Shown one piece after another: positions 2,228 through 19,575 of a stretch of DNA of 26,712 nt. Below the pieces are notes generated by a model. It was not told the DNA's origin. It made no database searches and saw nothing but the letters and a program-made list of their open reading frames with translations. How positions within the stretch are numbered: the first letter of the stretch is position 1; each line of letters starts with the position of its first letter. Source of the stretch: a virus; IMG/VR virus record IMGVR_UViG_3300014911_000632, positions 1 to 26,712 of that record; one strand, given 5' to 3'. A program made the translations under genes and the position numbers.

Positions 2228-2768
2228 CTTTAAGGGAAACATTCACACATTAACGGAAGAGGACAGGAGGAAGGCAGGGAAAACTATGACGCCAAAAAGA
2301 AGGCTTGCTAACACGCTTAATCCTATGAAGACTGGCAGGTACTCCAAAAGAGTTCCTCACTGCCATACTTGTGTCTTCAAAAACAGATGCAGTGCCTATG
2401 ATCCTAAAGACCCAAAAGCAGCATGCAAAGTAATTGATATTCCTAACTATTTTCATCTTATGAGTGCCTTGACTTTTCGCACAGAAGAAGATTTTGATGA
2501 TTTTGTGAACAAACTCACTCAAAGATTGTATCTGAAGAATATGACCAGTGATGACTGGGACAAAATGAAAGACTTCTTGTTGATATTTCTAAGGGTCAAA
2601 GACTCAAAATTCAGGAATCCCAGAGAACAAACAGTCAACATCCAGATCAATAATTTTCATGAGGAGTTCAACTTGTTCAAAGATGTCACTTTGAAAGTGC
2701 TGAGAAAACATCCTGAAGTTATGAAGGAATGGAGGAATGCTCTTGATGCTGCCAAACAATCCGATTGA
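2175..2768 (+). CDS. Putative terminase small subunit with Cys4 cluster
   Basis: The 197-residue protein starts at TTG, chosen from the strong Shine-Dalgarno six bases upstream. Its N-terminus is basic and contains NPMKTGRYSKR, followed by a cysteine cluster H62, C63, C66, C72, C84 (CHTC, then RC and AC), which looks like a zinc or iron-sulfur site. The rest is helical with many charged residues. It lies directly upstream of and overlaps the large terminase gene, the standard place for TerS, whose role is to recognise viral DNA and start packaging. A basic segment plus a Cys cluster after a TGxYSK-like string occurs in some phage terminase-small-like proteins. The assignment rests on position and this loose resemblance. 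A separate DNA-binding regulator is possible. Confidence 0.5.
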   Translation: MEKKASSQTSSQHPKLRNFKGNIHTLTEEDRRKAGKTMTPKRRLANTLNPMKTGRYSKRVPHCHTCVFKNRCSAYDPKDPKAACKVIDIPNYFHLMSALTFRTEEDFDDFVNKLTQRLYLKNMTSDDWDKMKDFLLIFLRVKDSKFRNPREQTVNIQINNFHEEFNLFKDVTLKVLRKHPEVMKEWRNALDAAKQSD

Positions 2769-4212
2769 AACAGCGCTCTTTGAAAGTTTTAAAGAGCCGA
2801 CTTATGAGAACTTCATAGGATTTGTGAAGAGGTATCTCGCTCCTTATATGGAACAAGAATTTGTGGAAGAAGACTATTACAAGGAGTGGTTTGAACTTGA
2901 GCAAAAATACCAATACAATGCGATTGAAGCGCCAAGGGGACATAGCAAGAGTGAAAACTTCACAGTTTGGTTTACTATTTATTATGCTGTTTATGATCTC
3001 AAACACGAACAAATAATCTCATCTGTAAGCGGAGATCAGACAAATGAATTATTTGACAGGATTAAATATTTCTTCTATGTAAGTCCTTATCTTAATAGGA
3101 ATTTTAAGCCAGAAGGAGCTGACAAGAATGTCAGTTTAAGTTCCTGGAACTCAAAAAAGATCGTTCTCAAGAATGATGCTGTAATTCATGCGAGAAGTAT
3201 TGCTGGCAAGTGGAGAGGTCTTCACGTTGACAGGATTGTTTGTGATGACATCATTACAGAAGACAGCACGTTAAGCGATAAGCAAACCATTAACAAGTTT
3301 TATTCAGCCGTGTTTAATTGCTCAACCGCAAAGAAAGGAAGCATAACTGTAATTGGGACTCCCTTGCGTTATTCAGACATACTTTTTGATCTTAAGGCCA
3401 ATAAGCAATTTAATTTCAAGGTTTACCCTGCTATTCTTAACTTTGAGGAGAGAAAGGTATTATCTCCTAAAAGAAAATCTTTTGATGAATTGATGAGGAT
3501 CAAAGAAACCATAGGTTCTTTGAGGTTTCAGTGCGAGTTCATGCTTAATCCTATCGATGATCACAGTTCTATCTTCAAGAGGGCTTGGCTGAGAAGGGCA
3601 AGAAATGAGAGCATAGAACTGATTAGGAACAGAAGGGAACTTCAACAGTACGGTTTTGAAGTCACGTCTATTATGTGCGGTGCTGATTTCGCTTTCTCTG
3701 AAAGGAAAAGCGCAAACTATTCAGTGTTTTTGACATTAGCAAGACTGACTGATGGCAGACTCTTGCTTTGTGATTTTTTCAGGAAAAAAGGAATGACTGG
3801 CCAGCAACAGATTGACAAGTTAAGAGAACTTCATTCAGCATATGATTATGATGTTATGGCATTGGAAGAAAACAGCATTATGGCAATAAGCAGGGATATC
3901 AAGAACATTGGCTTGCCCATAAAGACCCTTAGGACAGGAACAAGGGACACAGACGTTTCAATCTCAAAAACAAATGCGATCTTAAGGATGACCACGTGGT
4001 TTGAGAATAATCAAGTTGTCATACCTTATGCGAGTGAAGAAGCTAAAGAAAAGTACGAACTTCTTGAGCAAGAGTTCCTGAGTTTTGCTCTTGAGGATGG
4101 GAAGATTACAGAAATAGGAGTTCATCCAGACATTCCAATAGCTTTTGTTTATGCAGCTGAAGCTGTGAAAAGAACAACCCCCACAGGTTTTGTCACAAGC
4201 ATAGTCAGATAA
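2746..4212 (+). CDS. terL: Terminase large subunit (ATPase and nuclease)
   Basis: The 488-residue DNA-packaging motor has the expected two parts. The ATPase part has a Walker A APRGHSKS at residues 62-69 and a Walker B VDRIVCDD with acidic residues 167-168. The RNase H-like nuclease part has three acidic positions: D314 (CGADFAF), E374/E375 (ALEENS) and D462 (HPDIPIAF). No motif is missing and the length is normal. ATG 2746 is preferred because ggagg at 2731-2735 lies ten bases upstream; the earlier in-frame ATG at 2737 is only one base from that site. The gene overlaps the end of the putative TerS. It drives ATP-dependent DNA translocation into the prohead and cuts genome units. Confidence 0.95.
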   Translation: MLPNNPIETALFESFKEPTYENFIGFVKRYLAPYMEQEFVEEDYYKEWFELEQKYQYNAIEAPRGHSKSENFTVWFTIYYAVYDLKHEQIISSVSGDQTNELFDRIKYFFYVSPYLNRNFKPEGADKNVSLSSWNSKKIVLKNDAVIHARSIAGKWRGLHVDRIVCDDIITEDSTLSDKQTINKFYSAVFNCSTAKKGSITVIGTPLRYSDILFDLKANKQFNFKVYPAILNFEERKVLSPKRKSFDELMRIKETIGSLRFQCEFMLNPIDDHSSIFKRAWLRRARNESIELIRNRRELQQYGFEVTSIMCGADFAFSERKSANYSVFLTLARLTDGRLLLCDFFRKKGMTGQQQIDKLRELHSAYDYDVMALEENSIMAISRDIKNIGLPIKTLRTGTRDTDVSISKTNAILRMTTWFENNQVVIPYASEEAKEKYELLEQEFLSFALEDGKITEIGVHPDIPIAFVYAAEAVKRTTPTGFVTSIVR

Positions 4213-4235: not shown

Positions 4236-4610
4236 ATGTTTGAACCAGATAAACTATCCAAGCGAGACAAGAGAATACTGAAAGCCCTGTTGTACTTTTA
4301 TCCCAGGAAGAAAAGCGCTGCTCAAATCCACAATTACATCTCAAAATATTGGCAGAAGAGCGGCATAAGGAATGCGAAAGCATTAGGACATATTTTGATG
4401 AGGTTTCCTGTTGATTCTGAATTAACAGTGATCAGTTCAGTGACTAAAACTGGGATAATAAACAGCAGATATTTGAGGATTTATGTTCTCAAAAAGAACT
4501 TCGTGAAGAAATATTATAAAGAAAAAAATGACCTGATAAAATTGGGAAATAAGAAGTCACGACGCAGTTCAAAGGCTAAAAAAGATGGAAGAACAAAAAG
4601 AAAAAAGTAA
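4236..4610 (+). CDS. Basic, possibly winged-helix protein
   Basis: The 124-residue protein follows a clear Shine-Dalgarno (aaaggaggt at 4217-4225). Residues 6-60 read like a helix-turn-helix or winged-helix unit: LSKRDKRILKALLYFYP, then SAAQIHNYISKYW and a helix NAKALGHILMRFP, followed by a beta-like wing (ELTVISSV, SRYLRIYVL). The last 25 residues are almost all Lys/Arg/Ser (KKSRRSSKAKKDGRTKRKK), a tail suited to nucleic acid. It sits between TerL and portal, where an accessory packaging or regulatory DNA-binding protein would fit. The 3' end overlaps the portal start by 26 bases. No named family is recognised. Confidence 0.6.
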   Translation: MFEPDKLSKRDKRILKALLYFYPRKKSAAQIHNYISKYWQKSGIRNAKALGHILMRFPVDSELTVISSVTKTGIINSRYLRIYVLKKNFVKKYYKEKNDLIKLGNKKSRRSSKAKKDGRTKRKK

Positions 4611-6669
4611 GCATTTTATGGTTCTGTCGCAAGTTAATGAAGGTGTACGGCAGACTGCGATCACAGTAGATTATTCTATCGTAAATTATGCCAAGCTTGA
4701 AAGCATTTACAAGACAGACCAAATGATCTTCCAAGCAATAAATATCATCAGCACATTCGCAATATCAAAAGGTTACGAGTACATAGTCAGCGAGAACACA
4801 GATGAACAGCTTGAAATGAAAGAAAAGATCCTTTCTTTCGATGCAAAAGTCGGTCTTTCGAAACTGTTGACAGATGTTGTGAGGCATCTGCACATTTATG
4901 GCAACGCATATCTTGAAATAGTTTATTCTAAAACAGATAAGAATAAAGTTGTCGATCTCGCACTTATTGATCCTAAAACAATATCCTTCAAGAAAAGAGG
5001 AAATGGGGAGATTGATTTTGATGAGAGTGGAAACATTAAAGGTTATGTGCAGAAAGTAAATGCCAAGACAGTGGATTTGTCACCAGATCAGATAATTCAT
5101 TTCAGAATAAACACGATTGCGGACTCTCTTACTGGAACAGGAATTATAGAACCTTTAATAAAAGTCATTGAAGCAAAAAGAAACATTGAGATTGGACTTG
5201 CAGAAGCAGTGTATCGCCACGGTTTTCCTCAGTTTCATGTAAAGTTAGGTGATTCTGATCACCAGCCAACAACCGATCAAGTGACTGAGGAAAGCGAGAA
5301 GTACAAGAGAATCAATTCAAAATCTGAATTTGTCACGCCATATTATTACGATATAAAACTCTTGGAAGCTCCTTCCTTAAAGGGCGGCGAGAGTTATTTG
5401 AAATACTTCATAGATCAAATTGTTGCAGGCACAGGAGTTCCTCAAAGCATATTATTAGGAACAGGAGAAGGAAGCAACAGAGCCACTTCATTCACTCAGC
5501 AACAGAATTTCTTTCTTTACATAGGCGGAGTGCAGATGCTATTAGCTGAAACGCTTCAGAAAAACTTGTTTACTAAATTGCTTGGCGTTGATGAAAGTCC
5601 TGTGTATATGGTCTTTAATTCTCTGCAAACAAAGACTGATCTCGAATTAGCGCAAGAAAGGGAAATCTATCTGAGAAACGGTGTTTTGACTCCTGATGAG
5701 GTCAGGCAAGAGATGGGTCTGGAACCTATTTCTTCACCCCCAACAACTGAGCAGAACATCTCTGATGATTCATCAGGAGATTTTATTTTTTCAGAGAATG
5801 AGTTTCTCAGCAATAAAGACCTGATGCTTGAAGAGGACGATGACTTTGAAAAAGTCTTTGGTCCTTATGCAGATAATTTCAAGGCAGCTGACAACCTTGA
5901 TTTCGGAGGGATACTTCAAGAACTGGGAAAACCAATAAGATCACGTTTCATAAAAGATCAACACATACTTACTCACAGGATTAATAAAATCATGGACAGA
6001 TCAAGAAAGAAGATACTTAACTTAATCGATGAAGCGCTTGGAGATAAGGATAAAAAACTTGCAGCAGAAGACTTGGTGATTGATCCTGAACTTCTTGCTC
6101 CTGAAAGGGATGCTTTGATAGCTGCCGTGTTCCTTGATTCAAAGAAGAAATTCAAGCAAGGAATTAAGCTTGGAGAGGAGTTCATAAAGAAAAAACATCC
6201 TGTAGTCGCAGGAATCAAAGTCAAAAGCACAGTTAATGAGCAGGCAATAAAAGCGCTTGATCTCCGTTCAACTCAGCTTGCCAAGACTGTTTCTGGAGAT
6301 CTTTTGAAAGCAACCCAAACAGTTATACGTGAAGGACTCCAGGCAAGGAAAGGAGCAAGACAACTCAAGGAAGACATTGAGAAAGTATTTGAAAGGTTCG
6401 GAGGGACTCCAGGAAGATTTAACAAGATAGGCACAAGGGCAGAACTAATAGCAAGGACAGAACTGCACAGGTCATTTATTGATGGAACTCTTCAAAGTTT
6501 CAAGGAATTAAGGGTTGAAAGACTCAGAATGATAGTCAACGTTGGTGCTTGCGAGCAATGCTTGGATGTGGCGGCAGACAATCAAGAAACACCCATTCAT
6601 TTATCTGACGGAATAATTCCTGTTCATCCAAGATGCAGATGCGGGTGGGTGGCCAAAACCATTAGATAA
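4585..6669 (+). CDS. Portal protein fused to MuF-like head morphogenesis domain
   Basis: The 694-residue protein has two parts. Residues 20-400 look like an HK97-type portal: an early helical segment (TDQMIFQAINIISTFA), HLHIYGNAYLEIVY, DQIIHFRIN, and QIVAGTGVPQSILLGTGEGSNRA typical of the stem/wing region. Residues about 560-694 match the MuF (Mu gpF/SPP1 gp7) domain: GTRAELIARTELHRS, then a metal-like cluster C656, C659, H681, C684 and C686 (ACEQC and HPRCRC). An acidic, low-complexity linker lies around 395-430. The portal forms the dodecameric DNA gate. MuF proteins are usually separate minor head proteins that may be injected. Here there is no stop between them. ATG 4585 or ATG 4618 could start it; neither has a strong ribosome-binding site. 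Confidence 0.9.
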   Translation: MEEQKEKSKHFMVLSQVNEGVRQTAITVDYSIVNYAKLESIYKTDQMIFQAINIISTFAISKGYEYIVSENTDEQLEMKEKILSFDAKVGLSKLLTDVVRHLHIYGNAYLEIVYSKTDKNKVVDLALIDPKTISFKKRGNGEIDFDESGNIKGYVQKVNAKTVDLSPDQIIHFRINTIADSLTGTGIIEPLIKVIEAKRNIEIGLAEAVYRHGFPQFHVKLGDSDHQPTTDQVTEESEKYKRINSKSEFVTPYYYDIKLLEAPSLKGGESYLKYFIDQIVAGTGVPQSILLGTGEGSNRATSFTQQQNFFLYIGGVQMLLAETLQKNLFTKLLGVDESPVYMVFNSLQTKTDLELAQEREIYLRNGVLTPDEVRQEMGLEPISSPPTTEQNISDDSSGDFIFSENEFLSNKDLMLEEDDDFEKVFGPYADNFKAADNLDFGGILQELGKPIRSRFIKDQHILTHRINKIMDRSRKKILNLIDEALGDKDKKLAAEDLVIDPELLAPERDALIAAVFLDSKKKFKQGIKLGEEFIKKKHPVVAGIKVKSTVNEQAIKALDLRSTQLAKTVSGDLLKATQTVIREGLQARKGARQLKEDIEKVFERFGGTPGRFNKIGTRAELIARTELHRSFIDGTLQSFKELRVERLRMIVNVGACEQCLDVAADNQETPIHLSDGIIPVHPRCRCGWVAKTIR

Positions 6670-6719: not shown

Positions 6720-7940
6720 ATGAGCGATCAACTAATTCAAGAGATAAACAGTTTTATCAGTTTGTTGGATGTAACAGCTGAAACGTTGAATTCTAAGGAA
6801 CTCATAGATAGTTTTATTGCTCACAATGACGCAACAGTTCAAGAGATTAACCAATTCATTGAACTTATTCAAGATTTTGAAGAGAATGCCGTTGATCAAT
6901 CATTCTTCAAAGGAAGGCCAGGACTTCCTAGAAAGCAATTGCCAGACGCTGCTTTTGCAGTAGTTGAGGAAACAGGAAAGAAAGATGAGGAAGGAAGAAC
7001 TATTCCTGACATTGCAAGGCATTTGCCTCATCACACAGATGCTGTGAGGGATGGGACAGAAAATGACACTCTGGACATTGCAAGGTATAGAAACGCATTG
7101 GCAAGGGTCAGCCAGATAAAAGCAACGCAAGGAGGATCAACCGCTGAACTGATTGAAAAGGCAAGGAAACATCTGGAATCTCATAGGGAAGCACTTAACC
7201 CACCCGAAGATAATGAAAAGTTAATCCAGACATTTGAAGAGACAGAAAATGAGGTCACCTTTCTTCTTGAAGAACCATCTGCCTTTTTAGGCAACACTTT
7301 CAAAAGAAGGAATCTCGGAAACGGAATATCAATCATACTTGGAATGCTTAAGGATGTAACAAGGGCCAGCTTAGCACTCCAGAGTTTCAGGTTCAGCAAG
7401 AAAGAACCTTGGAACTGGACAATAGACCGAGCAAAGGCGTGGCTGCAAGGAAGAAGAATAATTGAGAATCAAGAACTCATAAGCAAACATCTTCAGTATG
7501 TCAAGATAAGCGATGTCAAGATTGAGCAGGTCCTAAGAGAAGGCACTGCTCTAAGGATCACAGGCATTGCCATAAGCGAAGGGACTTGGAACGGAATATT
7601 TTATCCTGCTGAAGAACTCAAGAAAGGCCATAAATCTTTGGAAGGGAAACCTCTAAGGATAGATCATTCAAGCAGCACTCGTGACATCGTTGGAAAAGTA
7701 ATCAAGTCAACATATAATCCGCATAAGAAATGGATAGAGTTTGAGGCTATTGTTACAGACGAAGACATTGCTCAGAAGCTGCTTGACAAGCTTATCGATT
7801 CTGTTAGTGTTGGAGTCCTCATAGATAATGAAGAAGAGGATGGCCGCCAGGTAGCACGCAACTTGGAGTTTAAGGAATTGAGTTTGGTAGATGATCCAGC
7901 ATGCAAAGATGCGAAAGTGAGTCCTGTAAAGAAAAAGTAA
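6720..7940 (+). CDS. Prohead (capsid maturation) protease
   Basis: The 406-residue protein has a C-terminal protease-like half (about residues 255-400) with the features of HK97-type U35 prohead proteases: LEGKPLRIDHSSS with a candidate catalytic His316, DSVSVGV with candidate Ser361/Ser363, and EFKELSLVDDPAC, the conserved closing segment with acidic residues. The N-terminal half is different. Residues 1-60 are helical. Residues about 75-155 carry LPDAAFAVVEE, then ARHLPHH and ARYRNALARVSQ, a segment also seen upstream of proteases or scaffolds in some tailed phages. The enzyme cleaves scaffold and other head proteins during maturation. It is followed directly by the scaffold-like gene. No Shine-Dalgarno precedes the start; a promoter-like element does. 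Confidence 0.85.
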   Translation: MSDQLIQEINSFISLLDVTAETLNSKELIDSFIAHNDATVQEINQFIELIQDFEENAVDQSFFKGRPGLPRKQLPDAAFAVVEETGKKDEEGRTIPDIARHLPHHTDAVRDGTENDTLDIARYRNALARVSQIKATQGGSTAELIEKARKHLESHREALNPPEDNEKLIQTFEETENEVTFLLEEPSAFLGNTFKRRNLGNGISIILGMLKDVTRASLALQSFRFSKKEPWNWTIDRAKAWLQGRRIIENQELISKHLQYVKISDVKIEQVLREGTALRITGIAISEGTWNGIFYPAEELKKGHKSLEGKPLRIDHSSSTRDIVGKVIKSTYNPHKKWIEFEAIVTDEDIAQKLLDKLIDSVSVGVLIDNEEEDGRQVARNLEFKELSLVDDPACKDAKVSPVKKK

Positions 7941-7957
7941 AGGAGGAGATGATCACG

Positions 7958-8419
7958 ATGGAAGAACCTAAAGAAATGAAACACGCAAAGTCTCTTTTGA
8001 AGAAAGCCTCTGAAGAACTTGCGCAAAAGAATCAAGAGATTGGAAAACTCAAGGAAGAACTTGCCAAGAAAGACAAGCTTATCTCAGAATTGACTGCCAA
8101 GCAAGAGAAATTGGCAAAGGAGTTTGAGGCTGTATCAAAAGAACTTAAGCAAATCAAACAAGAAGCAAGAGACGTTGTGCTCAAAGAACAAATTGAAGCT
8201 GAAGAAAAACTTGGCATTCTTGAAGTGCCCAAGGAACAAAGGCTTGCTGAGTTGAGGGAACTTGACGAAGCAGGAGGGTTTGATCTGTATGCCAAACAGA
8301 CAAAGAAAATGCTTGAACTTCACAAGAGCATTGGCGACAGGAAAACTCTGATCAATAATTCAAACCAGTCAGCTGACCGAAAGCAAGAGATTGCCAAGGC
8401 ACTGGGCATAGAATTGTAA
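7958..8419 (+). CDS. Coiled-coil scaffold protein
   Basis: The 153-residue product is nearly all helix. Residues 5-75 form a long charged coiled coil (SLLKKASEELAQKNQEIGKL, then KEELAKKDKLISELTAKQ), followed by a shorter helical end with SADRKQEIAKALGIEL. Start ATG 7958 is chosen because aggaggagatgatc at 7941-7954 lies just upstream; ATG 7949 in the same frame is too close to the core. The gene lies between the prohead protease and decoration/capsid genes, the usual place for the internal scaffold that shapes the prohead and is later removed. The major capsid protein is short (268 residues), with no long N-terminal delta-like domain, which fits a separate scaffold. Identity is inferred from structure and position. 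Confidence 0.75.
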   Translation: MEEPKEMKHAKSLLKKASEELAQKNQEIGKLKEELAKKDKLISELTAKQEKLAKEFEAVSKELKQIKQEARDVVLKEQIEAEEKLGILEVPKEQRLAELRELDEAGGFDLYAKQTKKMLELHKSIGDRKTLINNSNQSADRKQEIAKALGIEL

Positions 8420-8434
8420 AGGTGGTGAAACAAA

Positions 8435-8809
8435 ATGACATACGACATTCAAATTGATGATGGAAGAAATCCCAGCATGCTCGTTGCAGCAGCAGACCTG
8501 CAGAAAGGACAGTTCGTTGGTTTGGACCTTCAACCAGCAGCTGCTCAAGCAGACATCTTAGGCGTGTGCTTGAAAGACTCTGCTCAAAACAACCCAATCT
8601 CACTGGGTGCGATCGGAACGTTTTACGTTGACGTGGAAGTGGGAGCTTCAGCAGTTCTCAACGTTGGAGACGAACTGGAAGTGAAGGATGCAAGCACGTT
8701 GCAGGCAAAAAACACAGGAGTGACCGTTGCCAAGGCTTACGAAAAAGTTGACAACAGCGCAGGAGGCAGTGCGGTCGTGAAAAAAATCCCTGTGAAGATC
8801 ATAAAGTAA
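8435..8809 (+). CDS. Capsid decoration (cement) protein, DUF2190-like
   Basis: The 124-residue beta-rich protein follows aaaggtggtgaaa. It shows the pattern of small capsid cement proteins such as the DUF2190 family: VAAADLQKGQFVGLD, then ADILGVCLKDSAQ, an IGTFYVDVEVG strand, LNVGDELEVKD and a final AVVKKIPVKII. These proteins bind the outside of the expanded capsid and strengthen it. It is placed directly before the major capsid gene, the standard order in many siphoviruses. Codon choice is like the capsid gene next to it, as expected for highly expressed structural genes. A small head fibre is the alternative. Confidence 0.75.
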   Translation: MTYDIQIDDGRNPSMLVAAADLQKGQFVGLDLQPAAAQADILGVCLKDSAQNNPISLGAIGTFYVDVEVGASAVLNVGDELEVKDASTLQAKNTGVTVAKAYEKVDNSAGGSAVVKKIPVKIIK

Positions 8810-8826
8810 AAGGAGGAGAGAGCAAG

Positions 8827-9633
8827 ATGAAAACAATGCAAGAACTATTTTCAACGCAAGATGCCGCACCCCTCATAAAAGAAGTAATTGACTCCAACGT
8901 CTTCAAGGTAGCTGAAAGAGAGAGGGTTGGCAGGAAACTTTTGCGAGTTATCTCCCTGAACGAGGGTTCAGCTTTGAAGATTCCCAAGATGGGAGCAGGA
9001 CAAGCATACGTCATCCCTGAATTAGGTTCAATTCCTCTGGATGTAAGCACATTCAGTGAAGTGGTCATCACGCCATACAAGATTGGGAAGGCATTCGCAA
9101 TCTCAAAAGAATCAATTGAGGATTCTGCTTTTGATGTCGTTAGACTTAAGGCTGATATGGCTGCAGAAGACGTGGCCAGGAAAGAAGACGCTGAGATCTT
9201 CAGAGTGCTTGTCCAGACTACTAACACTGTCTCTCCAAAGACAGCTGGCGAGTTTGTCCAGGAAGACGTGATAACCTTGAGAAATGCAGTGAACAAGCAT
9301 AACTACAAGGCGAAATGGCTCGTGGCTCACCCAGATGATCTTGCCAAGCTTGAGAAAGACCTTATCAGCAAAGGGTACAAGGCTTTTGACAGGCTTGACG
9401 AAACAGGAATCATCGGGAATGTCGCAGGTCTTCAAGTCTTGGAGACAACCGCCCTGGACCCAGGAACTGTTCTCGCTCTTGACAGCAGAGCAGTTGTGTT
9501 GGTAGAAAGAAGGCCACTCTCAACAGAGAACTTCACAGATCCTTTGAGAGACCTAGCAGCTGGAGTCACAATCACGGAAAGGGTTGCACCTGCTGTGCTT
9601 GATGACAATGCAGTCGCTAAGATGACCTTGTAA
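8827..9633 (+). CDS. Major capsid protein (HK97 fold)
   Basis: The 268-residue protein follows aaaggaggagag. Its layout is that of small HK97-fold major capsid proteins: an N-terminal helix (MKTMQELFSTQDAAPLIKEV), an extended loop region (residues 35-80), the long spine-helix region (SIEDSAFDVVRLKADMAAED, then RKEDAEIF), an A-domain segment with WLVAHPDDLAKLEKD, and a C-terminal part with ALDSRAVVLVERRPL and ERVAPAVLDDNAVAKM. It lies after scaffold and decoration genes, exactly where the shell protein should be. Assembly forms the icosahedral head. The next gene encodes a paralog with a matching C-terminus. Confidence 0.9.
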   Translation: MKTMQELFSTQDAAPLIKEVIDSNVFKVAERERVGRKLLRVISLNEGSALKIPKMGAGQAYVIPELGSIPLDVSTFSEVVITPYKIGKAFAISKESIEDSAFDVVRLKADMAAEDVARKEDAEIFRVLVQTTNTVSPKTAGEFVQEDVITLRNAVNKHNYKAKWLVAHPDDLAKLEKDLISKGYKAFDRLDETGIIGNVAGLQVLETTALDPGTVLALDSRAVVLVERRPLSTENFTDPLRDLAAGVTITERVAPAVLDDNAVAKMTL

Positions 9634-9662
9634 GGCCAGCCAACTGAAAATGGAGGGGCAGT

Positions 9663-10400
9663 ATGGACCTAAGTAGCTTGAAGACTCAAATAATTGTGGA
9701 AGCAAACAAGTTCAGGCTAGGTCCAAGGCTCCTGAGGCTTCAAACGCAGACAGAGGGTTCTGCAACAAAAATCACAAAAATAAAGAACGTGAACGGAGCG
9801 ATAGTTCCCAGCTTGGGAGCAGCTCCTGTTTCGCTTTTAGAACTCGATTCAGTTATTGTGTTTCCCCTTACAATCAAATTGCCAATTCTTTTCGCAATTG
9901 AAGATTTTGAAGACAACGCACTCAATGACATCCTTCAAAGATCATTCAAGGAAAGTTTTCATTTCGCAGACATTGAGAATAGGCTTGTAGTTGAAACGCT
10001 TATTGCTGGAGCTGGCAAAACCATAACAGCACAAGCGAAACCTGACGTGAGAGAAGTTCCAATAATAGATAATTTTCTGGAAGCAATAAGATTCATAGAA
10101 GATAACGGATATGCTCCAAACAAGATTCTTGTCAATCCTGACATTGCCGAATCATTGAGGCAAAGAGAGGAATTGAAAGAGAAACTCATAGCATACGCCA
10201 TTGAAGTGATAATTAACATAGCAGTTCCATCTCAAACAGTTATCATTCTTGACAGTAACCATGCTGGCTTGCTAATTGAGAGGGTTTCTCTTGAGATAAA
10301 TGATTATATCGATCCTTGGCAGGGGAAGAAAGGTTTTCTTTTGAGAGAAAGGGTTGCTCCTGTTGTGATCAACGGAAACGCTGTGGCGGTGATACAATAA
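9663..10400 (+). CDS. Second HK97-fold capsid-like protein (paralog)
   Basis: The 245-residue protein follows ggagggg at 9652-9658. It aligns along most of its length with the capsid protein just upstream: GPRLLRLQTQTEGSATKI against GRKLLRVISLNEGSALKI, a DFEDNALND helix start against SIEDSAFDV, VNPDIAESL against AHPDDLAKL, and an end LLRERVAPVVINGNAVAVI against TITERVAPAVLDDNAVAKM. It is therefore a tandem paralog with probably the same fold. It may form pentons, a minor shell position or a mixed capsomer. It keeps an intact frame and a good ribosome-binding site, so it is not a decaying copy. Which of the two is the more abundant shell protein cannot be told from sequence. Confidence 0.8.
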   Translation: MDLSSLKTQIIVEANKFRLGPRLLRLQTQTEGSATKITKIKNVNGAIVPSLGAAPVSLLELDSVIVFPLTIKLPILFAIEDFEDNALNDILQRSFKESFHFADIENRLVVETLIAGAGKTITAQAKPDVREVPIIDNFLEAIRFIEDNGYAPNKILVNPDIAESLRQREELKEKLIAYAIEVIINIAVPSQTVIILDSNHAGLLIERVSLEINDYIDPWQGKKGFLLRERVAPVVINGNAVAVIQ

Positions 10401-11194
10401 TGGGTGTCGAGATTGAATTATTGGAACAAGTAAAAGCCGCTCTTGGTGAGATTAAGGCAGTCGCCAATGCGTTAAACATTGAGCCAGATGGGAGCATAAA
10501 CGTCAATAACAACAATCTTGCGGAATCTGTTTCAATCAAGGACGGAGCAGATCCTACAAAGAAAGCAATTGTTGATCAAGATGGAAGACTGCTTGTAAGA
10601 ACTCAGCAAGCAGGAACAACAGAAACAATCATAATCGATCCGAATAATCAAAATTTCAAAGCTCAAGTAGATTCTAACGGAAGGCTTCTTGTGAGTGCCG
10701 CTTCTGGCTCAAGCGGTTTACTGGGTTCTGTAAAGTTAGAAGATGCCTTTGATTCAAATAAAAAAGTATTTGTTGATGCTTCAGGAAGACTGCTTGTTGC
10801 CTTGCCTCCACCCAGCCCTCCAGCTGGAACAACAGAAGTGAAGAGAAGCAAGTTTAATGATGTTTTTGGCAACAGCGCAGATTACGATTATTATGTAATC
10901 CCAAATGGAGAGACTTTGAGGATTCAGAAACTGCTTGGTTCTTCAGAAGACAGAAGCAAGGACACTTATGTTGCCTTGTGGCTTGACAACAATGGGGACA
11001 CTCCATCTCCCACTCAACGTGACGGCCACCCTAACTGGGTACTCATTGCTATGGCCTTCACTAATGTCAGCAATGTGAACTTCGATCTTAACGAGGAAAT
11101 TGTTGGAGACGGAATTAAAAGAATAGTTCTGCACAGGAGAAGAATGGAAGCTGGAAGAAGGCTTGTTTTTGCCAGGTGGCAGGGGTATTACTAA
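10400..11194 (+). CDS. Repeat-containing structural protein, probable head-surface or fibre
   Basis: The 264-residue protein starts at ATG 10400, overlapping the capsid paralog stop by one base, with ggcggtgata just upstream. After an N-terminal helix (residues 3-27) come three repeats of a short beta unit ending VDxxGRLLV, at residues 44-66, 77-98 and 111-133, then a proline-rich hinge (PPPSPPAG, about 135-142). The last 120 residues form a beta-rich domain (DYDYYVIPNGETLRIQKLLG, WLDNNGD, HRRRMEAGRRLVFARWQGYY) resembling tail- or head-fibre domains. It has no enzyme motif. Its position after the shell genes suggests a protein displayed on the head. No named family is recognised. Confidence 0.65.
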   Translation: MGVEIELLEQVKAALGEIKAVANALNIEPDGSINVNNNNLAESVSIKDGADPTKKAIVDQDGRLLVRTQQAGTTETIIIDPNNQNFKAQVDSNGRLLVSAASGSSGLLGSVKLEDAFDSNKKVFVDASGRLLVALPPPSPPAGTTEVKRSKFNDVFGNSADYDYYVIPNGETLRIQKLLGSSEDRSKDTYVALWLDNNGDTPSPTQRDGHPNWVLIAMAFTNVSNVNFDLNEEIVGDGIKRIVLHRRRMEAGRRLVFARWQGYY

Positions 11195-11196
11195 AA

Positions 11197-11592
11197 ATGA
11201 CAGCTGAAAAATACAAGGGAAGGCTTGAATTGTACAATCCAAGCAGTCCAGTAACCCTAACAACTGCTTATGCTACCATATTCAACATATCTGGAGAAGG
11301 TTTCATTGATATGATGAAACTTGCTTTCACTAACATCACCGATGTTTTTGTCAAGGTAACCATAGACAATGAAATCTATTATGAGATTAATCTTTCAGAC
11401 TTGAAGAACAGGGTCAAGTTGACAAAGGATGAGCAGGATACGTTCCTCAATACTGCTCACAATGCTTTTTCAGATTCGTATCCTGTGCCTTTGTTCTTTG
11501 AGAGTTCCCTTCAAGTGGAAGTAAAGAAAGACACGGGAGCAAAAAGAAAGATCAAAGGAGGAATCATAAGGTACAGGTTGAGAGGTGATTGA
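11197..11592 (+). CDS. Beta-rich structural protein, unknown
   Basis: The 131-residue protein starts at ATG 11197, two bases after the preceding stop; a GTG at 11176 in the same frame would extend it by seven residues into that gene. It looks beta-rich: KGRLELYNPSSPVTLTTAY, then ATIFNISGEGFIDMMKLAF, TDVFVKVTIDNEIYYEINL, and a basic end KRKIKGGIIRYRLRGD. The central pattern resembles a jelly-roll-like virion decoration domain, but I cannot name a family. Tight packing with the previous repeat protein suggests they act together, for example as parts of a head-surface structure. Confidence 0.6.
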   Translation: MTAEKYKGRLELYNPSSPVTLTTAYATIFNISGEGFIDMMKLAFTNITDVFVKVTIDNEIYYEINLSDLKNRVKLTKDEQDTFLNTAHNAFSDSYPVPLFFESSLQVEVKKDTGAKRKIKGGIIRYRLRGD

Positions 11593-14608: not shown

Positions 14609-14944
14609 ATGGAATCAGAACAAACAAAAAAGGAGAATGAAAGCGAGGAAAAGAGTCCGCAGGAAAGGTTTGAACAGCATGAGTTCCGCAACATAACCAT
14701 ATATCACATGCACAAGGAATTGGTTAAGGAATTCAAGGAATGGTGCAAGATTCATGCTGGCAACAAGTTTCCTGCAGGGATTCAACTCTTGCTTTCAAGA
14801 GCCAAGGCATTTGACCTGCTAACAACAATGGAAAGCAGGATAAAAGCTTTGGAACAACAAGTCGCCCTGCTATCTCAAGGGCGCAAGAGTGTCGAGGAAC
14901 ACTCAGAACAAAAAACAGAGGTAAAGACTATTGGAGGGAATTAA
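14609..14944 (+). CDS. Ribbon-helix-helix-like protein with coiled coil
   Basis: The 111-residue protein has an acidic, disordered start (residues 1-24), then a ribbon-helix-helix-like core: strand FRNITIYHM (27-35), helix KELVKEFKEWCKI (36-48), a turn, and helix FPAGIQLLLSRAKAFD (54-69). A coiled coil follows (MESRIKALEQQVALLSQ, 74-90). RHH folds dimerise and usually bind DNA. It is placed between tube and tail chaperone, where no regulator is expected. It could be a regulator, or a structural protein whose fold only looks similar. No Shine-Dalgarno is seen; a weak copy of the promoter-like element lies upstream (14577-14608). Confidence 0.5.
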   Translation: MESEQTKKENESEEKSPQERFEQHEFRNITIYHMHKELVKEFKEWCKIHAGNKFPAGIQLLLSRAKAFDLLTTMESRIKALEQQVALLSQGRKSVEEHSEQKTEVKTIGGN

Positions 14945-14945
14945 T

Positions 14946-15275
14946 ATGACAAACAGATACACGCTTCAAGAATTATTGGCAAAATCAGGCGAAAAGAAAA
15001 GGATAGAAGTTCCTTACGAGGACGGCATAGTGGAGATGGAAATAACGCCAGTGACATTTGGACCTGTCAGCAGGATTCAGAATGATAAAACTGATGATAC
15101 TACAATGACAAGAGAGATGATCAAGACAGCAACTGGCCTGACGGATGAGCAAATTGACAAGCTGCCACTAGGTTTTGTCCCAGCGCTTGGAGAAGCAATA
15201 TCAAAAGCCTCAGGGCTTGACAAAGTGACTCAAAAACGTGCGGAGCGTTTTCCAAGTCCTCAGAAGGAAAACTGA
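14946..15275 (+). CDS. Tail assembly chaperone, short form (gpG-like)
   Basis: The 109-residue protein starts at ATG 14946 after ggaggga at 14933-14939; a TTG at 14931 lies before the ribosome-binding site. Its pattern is that of gpG-like chaperones: YTLQELLAKSGEKKRIEVPY, a strand pair VEMEITPVTFGPVSRI, then MTREMIKTATGLTDEQIDKL and a helix VPALGEAISKASGL. These small proteins bind the tape measure and bring tube subunits. It lies directly before the tape measure gene. The stop TGA at 15273-15275 can probably be bypassed by a -1 shift to give a longer form. Confidence 0.7.
   Translation: MTNRYTLQELLAKSGEKKRIEVPYEDGIVEMEITPVTFGPVSRIQNDKTDDTTMTREMIKTATGLTDEQIDKLPLGFVPALGEAISKASGLDKVTQKRAERFPSPQKEN
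15266..15272 (+). promoter_or_regulatory. Candidate -1 frameshift slippery site
   Basis: The heptamer GGAAAAC is read in zero frame as GAA AAC just before the stop TGA. Slipping back one base gives GGA AAA, tolerable pairings for both tRNAs, and opens the gpT-like frame. A second candidate is TCAAAAA at 15230-15236. Neither is a perfect X XXY YYZ site. Confidence 0.35.
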
Positions 15276-15421
15276 TCTACATCCTTCTGAGGCATTACGG
15301 GATGAGCTGGGATGAAATAAGGAACTTGACAATGCCGCAAGTATATTTCATGCTAGCAGCCTATAATGAGGACATAAAACAAAGGAACAAGCAAATGAAA
15401 AAAGCAAGGAGAAAGAGATGA
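15266..15421 (+). CDS. Tail assembly chaperone extension (gpT-like), reached by -1 frameshift
   Basis: In the -1 frame relative to the upstream chaperone, an open stretch runs from 15221 to the stop at 15419-15421. From 15266 it reads GKLIYILLRHYGMSWDEIRN, then LTMPQVYFMLAAYNEDIKQR and a basic end. This is the usual look of a gpT-type extension (aromatic strand, YG-MSWDEI, then LT..Q...ML.AYNE). It has no good start of its own at the beginning of the conserved part; ATG 15302 would cut off LIYILLRHYG. A -1 shift near 15266-15272 (GGAAAAC, next to the zero-frame stop) would give a fusion of about 158 residues. The tape measure gene follows, as in the conserved G/GT arrangement of tailed phages. 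Confidence 0.6.
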   Translation, partial: GKLIYILLRHYGMSWDEIRNLTMPQVYFMLAAYNEDIKQRNKQMKKARRKR

Positions 15422-15462: not shown

Positions 15463-18400
15463 ATGGTTGAATCAGTACGCATCAAGTTCAAGGGAGAAGA
15501 CAGCGTCTCACCAGCACTGTCAAGAATCAACGCAGGAATTAGTAGATTAAGCTCTAAAATAGGCAGTGTTGGAAAAACTTTCTCCAGCTTCAACAAAAAA
15601 CTCCTTCTCGGTTTCACGGCAATAGGAACCGCACTAACAGCGCTGGGAATAAAAGCCATAAAGAGTTTCGGAGAGTTTGACAGGCAAATAAAGAGAGTTC
15701 AAGTCCTGGCTGGAGGGACGGAAAAAGACTTCAAAAGGCTTGCTGATACCGCATTCAAATTAGGATCAAGCACGGCTTTTTCAGCTCAAGAAGTTGCTGA
15801 GGCGTTTGAAGAATTTGCCAAGGCAGGATTTTCTGTCAATCAGATTCTTGACGCTTCAGAAGCAACTCTCGGTTTGGCAACTGCTGGGAATCTCAGCCTT
15901 GCTGAAGCAGTCAATATCGCGGTGGCTGCTTTGAATGCTTTTGGAAGAGAAGCAGAAGATATGAACAGCGTTGCCACAATACTTACAACAGCATTCACAA
16001 ATTCCGCTCAAACACTGCAAGACTTGGGACAAGCGTTGAAGTTCGTCGCTCCTTTGGCTTCAAGCCTTGGCATAAGCCTTGAAGAAGTAAGTGCGGCTCT
16101 TGGAGCTCTTGCTCAGGTCGGAATAAGAAGCAGCATAGCTGGAACAAGCTTGAACCAGGCATTGTTGCAATTGTTAAGGCCAACTGCTGAGTCATCAGAG
16201 ATTATGGAGGATCTCGGAGTTTCTTTTTTCACTTTGAATGAAGCAGGCCAAGCTGCAAGGGCAACCATTCAAGCAACAAAGGATGAGTTCAACGCTTTGA
16301 AAGAGAGAGTAAGAGAAAGCGATATCGAGGTTGCTGAGTTAGGGTCTAAACTGGCAGAAGCGAAAAGGCAGCTGAAAGCCTTTGGCGGTGAGACAGGAAG
16401 TTCAGAGAGCTTGTCAAAGAGTCTGAAAGTGCTGCAGGCTCAGTTTGACGAGGCAAGACTGAGAAACAAGGAACTTCGTGATTCATTAGAAGCTCAAGAG
16501 AAAACATTTGAAAGTCTCAGGAGACAAGTAAGGGAAGGCTCTCTTGAGTTCGTGGGATTAAGAGACGCTGCCAGGCAATTGAATGAGGCATTCAAGAAAA
16601 TGGATGCTTCAACGATACAGAAGGCAACAGCGCTTGTTCAAATTTTCAAGGTCAGGGGAGCAAGATCCTTTCTTACTCTTACAAAAGAACTTGAAGAGTT
16701 TGACAGGCTTTTCAATATCATCGCTGCAACTGAGTTAAGGACAGAACTTCTTGACGAGGGCAGCCTTAAGGCAGCTCTTTCCGCCCAGGACAGTTTCGCA
16801 AGGCAGTTCGGCATAACCTTTGAGAAGCTTGTCGCCAATGCTACCAAAGTGCCTGAAGGTGTTGACAAGGCACTGAGGGATGCAAAACTTGATGAGAGGG
16901 CAAGGGACATATTCAGAAACCTGAGGAACGAGATCAAGGCTCTGGGCTTGGAAAGCGAAGCAATAGAAGCGGTTCTTTCTGACTTCTTGCCTTTGGATGC
17001 TGTCAAGGATTTCAGAAAGATCATTCAACTTACAGATGAGGACTTTGAGAAGTTCCTTGAGAACATTAATGCTGCTAATCAGGATGCTCAAACATTGAAC
17101 AAAACGCTTCTTCAGAATCTTGGAAGTGCTTTGGAAGAGTTGCAGGACACAATAACGACCACTTTCATCAGGATCGGCGGAGCGATAGCCGAAAGACTTG
17201 ACCTTAGCGATGTAGTGAGAAACATCCAGCAATCCATAGAAGATTTCTCAACAGGAGGCGGAGTTGAAAGACTTGCTGACAGATTAGTCTCTGTTTTCAG
17301 GACAATAAGCTCTTTCTTCAAAGGCATTGGAAAAGGGTTCAAGCAAGTTTTCACACCAGACATTGTAGCGAACCTTAAGAACGCATTTGTCAAGAACTTT
17401 GGAACTATTCAGAAAGAGGCATCTAACTTTGGCACCATCCTGGGAAGGATATTCGGAAGCATAGTCAAAGGAGGAGCAGAACTCATCACAAGAATTCTTA
17501 ATGCTAACCTCATAGAAAACGCTAGCACAGCCTTCAAGAAACTTGGAAACGTGCTTGAGAAGATAGGGCCTGTTATTGGGGCTGTTGCTGCTGGATTTGT
17601 GATATTGTCTCCTGTTCTTGGACCTCTCTTTTTCATTCTCAGCAAAGTAGTCGGAGTTTTTGGCTTGTTAATAAGAGGGCTTAGTGGAGCCGGGAAGGCA
17701 ATTGCTTCCTTGTTTGGAGGAGTTGGAAAACTTTCATCTTTGTTTGGAGGGGTTGCTGGGAAAGCTGCGAGCGTTGGTTCTGCTGCCGTGAGTGCCACTA
17801 CTGGCACGACAGGGTTCTTGGCTAAATTAAGCGCTTTGGGTTCTACCATTAGCAGCATATTCTCTGCGATAGGAAGCGCATTAGGAGTTACTGCCGGAAC
17901 AGCAGCTGCCATTGTTGTTGCAATAGTTGGCACAATAATAGGGTTCATCAATCAAGTAAGGCAGAATTTTCTCGGGCTCGGAGATGACTTCAAAGTTATT
18001 TTTGGGGCAATAATCAATGTTTTCAAGGCCATTGGCAGTGCGATCATTGAGAATTTTGTTGATGTTGGCAAACTCTTGAAACCAATATGGGATGGCATAA
18101 AAGAAACTTTCAATGGGTTAGGCAAGATTCTGGCAAGCCTGGTGGCAATAGTCATCAAGCCCTTTGCTAACGGATTAAGGGAAGCAGGTCAGCAAGGCAT
18201 TAACAGCTTTGAGATTATAAAAGCACTTGTTTCAATATTGTTCGCCCCATTGAAATTAGTTCTCACTCTTGTCGGAAGCGTACTCAAGGCAATAGGAGCG
18301 ATAGTCAATTTCATAGGCGACTTAATAGGGGGCATTGTCGAGTTCGGATTCGCAGTGGCAGATGCTTTCAAGAGATTCAGGGAAGAAGGATTCTCAGCCT

Positions 18401-19575
18401 TTAATGAAGTAGGCGACTTGGCAAAGAAAATAGGGCTGTCAATTCTCAAATCATTCATAGGAGCTATTGATTCAATGATTAACATCTTCATTGATCTTAT
18501 CAATGAATTGATCAATGTTGCTCGAAAGATTCCTCTCTTGAACAAGCTAATTGGTGACAATTTCAAGATAGACAAGAATGTCCTAAGCAACTTGCTCGGA
18601 TTCACTAAGGAAGCTGAAAAAGCAGTTCTTCCAACCGTTGAACAAGGAAAGTCTGCTGGTTTTTCGTTTGCTTCATCAGCAAGAACAACCTTGACAGCAG
18701 AGAGCGGAGCAGTAACAGAAGCTGCAATTCAACCATTCAAACAGGCAAGCGCAGACGTTACTGAACTTGGTTTTCAGACTGTGTCAAATTTCACTTTGCC
18801 TTTCAAGGACCCAGTGAACGTTAATGCTGCCAGAGCAGATGTCATGAGCATATTTCCTGATCAGGCTCAAGCATCTCAAATGGGAAGAGATTTTGGAAGA
18901 GCGTTCTTCACAGGTCTTGCTGAAGGAGTTCAATCTTTGGCAGAAATTTTTCAGGAAAACATAAAGCCCGTCTTTATCACTATGAATGACGCATTGAAAG
19001 ATTTCATTGCATTGTTCCTGAGAAACTTGTTCACATTAAAACTTGTTCCTGTATTCTTGCAGAACCTTGCTGCCAGAATGTTTGACATATTTGTTGGAGG
19101 ATGGCACGCAATGTTCACTGCAGTGATTGACATTACTGAGAATTCCATTAACACAATGCTTTCCAATCTTCAGAAATTTTTCAATCAGCTTGTCTCTGTT
19201 GTGAACAGGCTGATTGCAGAATACAACAGAGCTGCTGCCGTTCTCTCAAGAGATATCACAAGAACAAGGATAAGGAGAGTCAGGAGAAGAACGAAGTCTG
19301 GGAAGATAAGGACCAGGATCATAAGAACCAGAGAAGTGCTGTTCAAAGGAGTGAACATTCCGAGACTGAGAGCATTTTCTCCAGTGAACCTGACTCCTCT
19401 CCAATTGGAGAGGCCAGAACTTCCAACGCCACCGCAAGGAGTTTCTGTCAATGCAGGCGGTTTCACTGTCAACATAGAGAACTTCAACGCATCTTCTGAG
19501 GCTGATAAGCAGAAACTGTTTGCTGAGATTGACGCATTCATAGCAAGAAAACTTGGGGAATTGGTGAGACTATGA
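15463..19575 (+). CDS. Tail tape measure protein
   Basis: The 1370-residue protein sets tail length; at roughly 0.15 nm per residue (general rule) it suggests a tail near 200 nm. The N-terminus has the typical basic start (VRIKFKGEDSVSPALSRI) and a TP901-type core at about 75-245: AGGTEKDFKRLADTAFKLG, STAFSAQEVAEAFEEFAKAG, then SLNQALLQLLRPT. A coiled coil at 270-370 is followed by the rest of the core (IFKVRGARSFLTLTKELEEF). Hydrophobic, probably membrane-active stretches lie at about 700-745, 812-830 and 922-970. A very basic patch RRVRRRTKSGKIRTR lies near 1270. No peptidase or lysozyme domain is seen. ATG 15463 is the only start; an upstream stop (15457) closes the frame and the ribosome-binding site is poor. 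Confidence 0.92.
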   Translation: MVESVRIKFKGEDSVSPALSRINAGISRLSSKIGSVGKTFSSFNKKLLLGFTAIGTALTALGIKAIKSFGEFDRQIKRVQVLAGGTEKDFKRLADTAFKLGSSTAFSAQEVAEAFEEFAKAGFSVNQILDASEATLGLATAGNLSLAEAVNIAVAALNAFGREAEDMNSVATILTTAFTNSAQTLQDLGQALKFVAPLASSLGISLEEVSAALGALAQVGIRSSIAGTSLNQALLQLLRPTAESSEIMEDLGVSFFTLNEAGQAARATIQATKDEFNALKERVRESDIEVAELGSKLAEAKRQLKAFGGETGSSESLSKSLKVLQAQFDEARLRNKELRDSLEAQEKTFESLRRQVREGSLEFVGLRDAARQLNEAFKKMDASTIQKATALVQIFKVRGARSFLTLTKELEEFDRLFNIIAATELRTELLDEGSLKAALSAQDSFARQFGITFEKLVANATKVPEGVDKALRDAKLDERARDIFRNLRNEIKALGLESEAIEAVLSDFLPLDAVKDFRKIIQLTDEDFEKFLENINAANQDAQTLNKTLLQNLGSALEELQDTITTTFIRIGGAIAERLDLSDVVRNIQQSIEDFSTGGGVERLADRLVSVFRTISSFFKGIGKGFKQVFTPDIVANLKNAFVKNFGTIQKEASNFGTILGRIFGSIVKGGAELITRILNANLIENASTAFKKLGNVLEKIGPVIGAVAAGFVILSPVLGPLFFILSKVVGVFGLLIRGLSGAGKAIASLFGGVGKLSSLFGGVAGKAASVGSAAVSATTGTTGFLAKLSALGSTISSIFSAIGSALGVTAGTAAAIVVAIVGTIIGFINQVRQNFLGLGDDFKVIFGAIINVFKAIGSAIIENFVDVGKLLKPIWDGIKETFNGLGKILASLVAIVIKPFANGLREAGQQGINSFEIIKALVSILFAPLKLVLTLVGSVLKAIGAIVNFIGDLIGGIVEFGFAVADAFKRFREEGFSAFNEVGDLAKKIGLSILKSFIGAIDSMINIFIDLINELINVARKIPLLNKLIGDNFKIDKNVLSNLLGFTKEAEKAVLPTVEQGKSAGFSFASSARTTLTAESGAVTEAAIQPFKQASADVTELGFQTVSNFTLPFKDPVNVNAARADVMSIFPDQAQASQMGRDFGRAFFTGLAEGVQSLAEIFQENIKPVFITMNDALKDFIALFLRNLFTLKLVPVFLQNLAARMFDIFVGGWHAMFTAVIDITENSINTMLSNLQKFFNQLVSVVNRLIAEYNRAAAVLSRDITRTRIRRVRRRTKSGKIRTRIIRTREVLFKGVNIPRLRAFSPVNLTPLQLERPELPTPPQGVSVNAGGFTVNIENFNASSEADKQKLFAEIDAFIARKLGELVRL

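Follow-up and report, generated by a model that had tools for sequence, protein, structure and literature searches.

Distinct genes for the hexon and penton subunits of the capsid are considered rare among tailed viruses, T4 being the named example, and the large genome of T4 has been offered as the reason why separate genes are affordable there (PMC13185644). The initial annotation of the locus described here started from the premise that one shell protein is enough for most siphoviruses, which is in line with this literature (PMC13185644). In T4, the vertices are formed by gp24, a diverged copy of gp23 with ~20% identity to it, and mutations in gp23 that make gp24 dispensable fall in part on A-domain contacts inside the capsomer (PMC9958956). 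Paired adjacent shell genes are also found in the family 2B encapsulins of Streptomyces lydicus, with conserved differences located in the A domain (PMC12407261). The virus group to which our locus belongs is already known: Xu et al. (PMC11705971) named QZIT01000006_pro, a 51.5 kb element, as a Woesearchaeales tailed provirus (WATPV), and the accessible part of their text holds no mention of a second capsid protein. Here we consider a stretch of 26,712 nucleotides of a related virus (IMG/VR record IMGVR_UViG_3300014911_000632; hereafter the window), in which the gene for a major capsid protein, MCP1, is directly followed by that for a diverged paralog, MCP2.

The window sits in contig C2 (91.9 kb) of a 1.64 Mb genome. 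Host-type genes flank it on the left and genes resembling tyrosine recombinases on the right, the family of the latter being confirmed on their homologs in the related locus L004. The virus is accordingly most likely a provirus, and the window is most likely part of such a tailed-virus provirus of a Woesearchaeales archaeon. Long direct repeats were sought as attachment sites, and none was convincing. Two related tyrosine-recombinase-like genes lie near the right end of the provirus (G000:C2:83705-84550 and 90507-91475), a pair also present in L004. Relatives of the host genome within the same order include QZIT01000006 (G130), with match coordinates equal to those of L003. The locus L003 is a stretch of QZIT01000006.1, and its terminase, MCP1 and MCP2 are 82%, 89% and 71% identical, respectively, to those of the window, with the gene order from terminase to tape measure common to both. 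The tail genes scanned include no recognisable sheath gene, which fits a siphovirus, and the virus is probably siphovirus-like. The same assembly carries a second tape-measure-like gene (G000:C48:271-966, 34% identical), suggesting another tailed provirus or virus contig.

The head module runs in the order terminase, portal, protease, scaffold-position protein, cement, MCP1, MCP2 and one or two further genes, followed by connector and tail genes. The features are:

2737..4212, + strand: terminase large subunit (PF03237, E 2.5e-4, just below cut-off; orthologs in relatives)
4585..6669, + strand: portal protein with C-terminal extension (PF04860, E 1.8e-18)
6720..7940, + strand: head maturation protease, C-terminal part (phrog_80, E 1.5e-5)
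7901..8419, + strand: coiled-coil protein in the scaffold position (by place between protease and capsid genes and by composition; kept in relatives)
8435..8809, + strand: capsid cement/decoration protein, 124 aa (PF09956 Phage_cement_2, E 2e-5, above cut-off)
8811..8817, + strand: Shine-Dalgarno-like sequence of MCP1, aggagga (by sequence)
8827..9633, + strand: MCP1, HK97-type major capsid protein, 268 aa, likely hexon subunit (PF05065, TIGR01554, phrog_10, phage G gp27)
9634..9662, + strand: MCP1-MCP2 spacer, 29 bases
9652..9658, + strand: Shine-Dalgarno-like sequence of MCP2, ggagggg (by sequence)
9663..10400, + strand: MCP2, diverged HK97-family paralog, 245 aa, likely second shell subunit, putatively penton (MCP1 homology, sibling MCPs, phrog_1650)
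10400..11194, + strand: gene after MCP2, its start overlapping the MCP2 stop (variable among relatives)
15463..19575, + strand: tape measure protein (long tail), 1370 aa (phrog_1533, E 3e-65)

The true start of the coiled-coil ORF is probably internal, near 7958, and its product gave no firm match in Pfam or PHROG family searches. Unlike their neighbours, which are better conserved, the genes at 10400-11194 and 11176-11592 vary more than any others in the structural cluster: the product of the former is 34-65% identical to those of relatives, and the latter has no match in several of them. Further downstream, an ORF at 14931-15275 lies between the presumed major tail protein gene and the tape measure gene and is followed by a conserved -1 frame extension (EGKLIYILLRHYGMSWDEIRNLTMPQ...; 14931-15420 in all), which is also found in L003 and L016. 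This arrangement is likely a programmed-frameshift tail-assembly chaperone pair of the gpG/gpGT type.

The family matches of MCP1 are those of an ordinary major capsid protein of the HK97 type (PF05065, E 5.5e-22, 78.9 bits, cut-off 24.2; TIGR01554, E 1.2e-17, 64.1 bits, cut-off 27.5; phrog_10, E 9.9e-25), and the nearest solved sequence is gp27 of phage G (PDB 6wkk, E 2.5e-7). For MCP2 of the window there was no Pfam match, the best member of its family reaching only E 0.027 against PF05065, and no NCBIfam match; a tblastn search of the phage collection likewise gave none. Annotation by Pfam or NCBIfam alone thus overlooks second capsid proteins such as MCP2. The two proteins are nevertheless 26% identical (46% positives) over 246 columns by BLASTP (E 4e-18), and their local alignment score of 182 compares with 36 +/- 6 (maximum 68) in 1000 shuffles (z = 25). 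In a whole-genome search each retrieves the other (E 4.9e-14 and 3.1e-14). The similarity is not due to chance. Comparison of the two families by hhalign gave a probability of 98.8% over 223 columns, and comparison of MCP2 with the MCPs of single-MCP virus contigs, leaving MCP1 aside, gave 95.8%, against 0.0-0.3% for five column-shuffled controls. All seven members of the MCP2 family match phrog_1650 (major head protein; best E 2.1e-5), and the MCP2 HMM, applied to all ORFs of the sibling loci, picked 33 of 35 MCPs and no other ORF. Judged by these profile comparisons, the capsid homology of MCP2 is well supported, and an HK97 fold is expected of it by virtue of that homology. AlphaFold2 returned pLDDT values of 30 and 32 for the two families, from alignments of just 7-8 close homologs, probably too few.

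The initial annotation had described two tandem HK97-family paralogs, and pairwise, profile and tree evidence all support that description. Both frames are open from an ATG start at the coordinates it had given, and each is preceded by a good ribosome-binding site (aggagga and ggagggg). The shared motifs it had noted are present at the start (GRKLLR...EGSALKI in MCP1, GPRLLR...EGSATKI in MCP2) and at the end (ERVAPAVLDDNAVA and ERVAPVVINGNAVA, respectively). Its claim of alignment along most of the length holds for the 246 columns and needs qualification at two places: MCP2 lacks the N-arm tip (~15 N-terminal residues) and ~12 residues of the A domain, among them a G-rich segment common to MCP1 and the siblings. 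The latter loss fits an altered capsomer centre. With domain boundaries set by the general layout of the HK97 fold rather than by a structure, the identity between MCP1 and MCP2 is 31% for the E-loop region, 40% for the part of the P-domain at the C terminus, 15% for the spine helix and 17% for the A domain; the corresponding values between MCP1 and the siblings are 22%, 35%, 21% and 17%, so that in the first two regions the paralogs are the more alike. With the E-loop and P-domain similar and the spine and A domain diverged, the contacts between subunits and between capsomers seem to be kept in MCP2, while those at the capsomer centre seem to be altered.

At least seven distinct sequences (the window, L003, L004, L006, L008, L010 and L016) carry MCP1 and MCP2 side by side, both intact and with the gene order unchanged. 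In a survey of 371 genomes of the phylum MCP1 was present in six and MCP2 in exactly those six, and every relative found with MCP1 has an adjoining MCP2, intact save in L007. There MCP2 is broken at residue 114 and fused to a fragment resembling a tyrosine recombinase, after which comes a gatE-like gene of the host (L007:1680-2773); scaffold, cement and MCP1 are retained, and the L007 genome gave neither a terminase nor a tape measure match. L007 is a degraded provirus. Among the relatives dN/dS lies at ~0.03-0.13 in MCP1 and at ~0.08-0.24 in MCP2, and dS is often >1; both genes are under purifying selection at deep divergence, that on MCP2 being two to three times less strict.

Several of the other loci call for comment. 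The terminase and portal genes of L004 and L006 do not stand beside the capsid genes, and the two were considered as capsid-only satellites; this was rejected, the terminase being found ~12-16 kb upstream with inserted genes between. The inserts between terminase and protease comprise, among others, a reverse transcriptase gene (RVT_1 + HTH_40; L004:3955-5661 and L006:2635-4308), which is best matched by general reverse transcriptase models and shows no clear DRT type; the window has no reverse transcriptase gene between terminase and protease. In L004 the tail module is absent after the capsid genes (L004:9733-11073) and no tape measure match was found in the genome; L004 is a degraded or rearranged provirus. 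L005 (JAIPIH010000012.1), binned as Cloacimonadota, has match coordinates and identities equal to those of the Woesearchaeota contig L006 and is probably a mis-binned archaeal virus. L017, from the viral scan, was rejected as a close relative, since it has the look of a phage of bacterial type, whose one capsid gene is ordinary.

Where did MCP2 come from? Single-MCP contigs of the G213/L068 type provide a point of comparison: L068 has protease, cement-like protein and MCP in the order of the window, the MCPs of these contigs are matched by the MCP1 profile, and within the sequence examined neither L068 nor 35 related viral contigs contain a second HK97-like ORF. In a tree that also included the siblings, HGTV-1, phage G and other sequences, MCP1 groups with MCP2 in a single clade with support of 93/87, below the strict threshold, and the stem of MCP2 is longer (1.89 compared with 0.83 for MCP1). 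The tree favours an origin of MCP2 by duplication of the capsid gene within this virus lineage, though long branches may attract. The locus resembles that of Bacillus phage G, in which a decoration-protein gene is located directly upstream of gp27, as the cement gene precedes MCP1; phage G is, however, a jumbo phage, and the identity between gp27 and MCP1 is only ~25%. The likeness to T4 gp23 and gp24 consists in two paralogous shell proteins encoded by separate genes after duplication and divergence, with the shell membership of MCP2 deduced from homology. In contrast to T4, a large myophage with a prolate head, whose own protease cleaves gp23 and gp24, here we are dealing with an integrated, probably siphovirus-like archaeal virus. 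The window contains a head-maturation protease gene. The profile of MCP2 had no relevant match among the solved structures of the PDB, and an origin independent of T4 is therefore likely.

We lean, by a little over even, towards a shell of two kinds of subunit, in which MCP1 makes the hexons and MCP2 most likely the pentons, in the manner of gp23 and gp24. In such a shell MCP1, which retains the ancestral sequence features, would make the hexons. The duplicated copy, having lost the N-arm tip and the A-domain segment, would take the place of MCP1 in 11 pentons, at every vertex but that of the portal, and would touch neighbouring subunits through the E-loop and P-domain just as MCP1 does. We infer the incorporation of MCP2 into the shell from its sequence relationship; its placement in pentons draws on the analogy and would imply a low copy number. 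The twelfth vertex being taken by the portal, pentons at 11 vertices hold ~55 copies, and the figure of 60 expected in the initial annotation has to be corrected to this number. With 60(T-1) copies of MCP1, the expected ratio of MCP1 to MCP2 would be 360:55 for T=7 and 480:55 for T=9. The location of MCP2 inside the head module, between cement/MCP1 and the connector genes, supports this arrangement. Against it, a virus of ~50 kb does not obviously need a special penton protein. That an archaeal tailed virus of ordinary genome size evolved a dedicated penton by capsid-gene duplication, independently of T4, we hold to be a tentative proposition, with a chance slightly under even.

MCP1 and MCP2 might co-assemble in both hexons and pentons, at fixed or variable positions, in the way that the two shell proteins of family 2B encapsulins do; the S. 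lydicus pair is a precedent for a two-component HK97-fold shell of variable composition (PMC12407261), and two adjacent HK97-fold shell genes are common to both cases. The identity between MCP1 and MCP2 is highest in the E-loop and P-domain, and the window has good ribosome-binding sites for both genes and no T-run in the spacer, all of which would suit such a mixture. However, the encapsulin paralogs are ~70% identical, whereas MCP1 and MCP2 share 26% with deletions, and the contacts within the capsomer, through the A domain and spine, have diverged most, which argues for separate capsomers. Encapsulins are, moreover, cargo shells without portal, terminase or tail, whereas the cluster of the window has portal, terminase, tape measure and connector genes. 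On balance we consider co-assembly unlikely. Rather unlikely, too, is a role for MCP2 in small numbers at one particular site, such as the surroundings of the portal vertex, or in head assembly, where it would set the size or promote nucleation, instead of in all pentons: MCP2 is shorter, evolves faster and is placed after MCP1 in the head module, as might be expected of a minor component, but it keeps most of the capsid-protein sequence, including the E-loop and P-domain motifs, which suggests lattice contacts, and no complete HK97 paralog in a minor head role is known to us.

Functions outside the virion fare worse. Nothing direct speaks for MCP2 as a reused inhibitor that would block capsid assembly of a superinfecting virus or satellite, or delay assembly, and it always accompanies MCP1 in the head module, being found neither elsewhere nor on its own, which together with the strong purifying selection on it makes such a role improbable. 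The truncated copy in L007 could be taken as a sign that MCP2 is a decaying or redundant duplicate without function; but the break is that of a degraded provirus, and seven distinct sequences carry the gene unbroken, its dN/dS staying well under 1 although dS is high. Because of this conservation we give functionless decay next to no credence.

If MCP2 occupies the pentons, its expression might be expected to be the lower, and the signals around the two genes bear on this to some extent. GGAGG precedes MCP1 in all aligned relatives, and the sequence upstream of MCP2 in relatives is mostly AGGTGA or GGAGG. A run of seven T residues is present in the MCP1-MCP2 spacer in five of six relatives examined, representing two lineages, and is absent from the window and L016; in L010 it is the sole T7 run within 15.5 kb. 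T-rich internal terminators lower downstream transcription in archaeal operons (PMC10450193), and the spacer run is a possible archaeal attenuator that would lower MCP2 transcription in the two lineages. With no such run in the window or L016, and with a good ribosome-binding site before MCP2, a low copy number is unsupported in the window. Codon bias gave no expression signal that distinguishes MCP1 from MCP2.

Our search of the open-access literature yielded no account of an archaeal tailed virus with a paired HK97 capsid. A tailed-virus shell with two HK97 paralogs is known from T4, and the archaeal case described here is probably of independent origin. If the assignment of MCP1 to hexons and MCP2 to pentons is true, this would be the first known hexon/penton division in an archaeal tailed virus, and one for which single-MCP relatives are available for comparison. 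With a small archaeal virus as the second case beside T4, apparently independent of it, one could ask which selective pressures favour a penton protein of its own, and the relatives with a single gene could show which parts of the HK97 fold must change for a penton protein.
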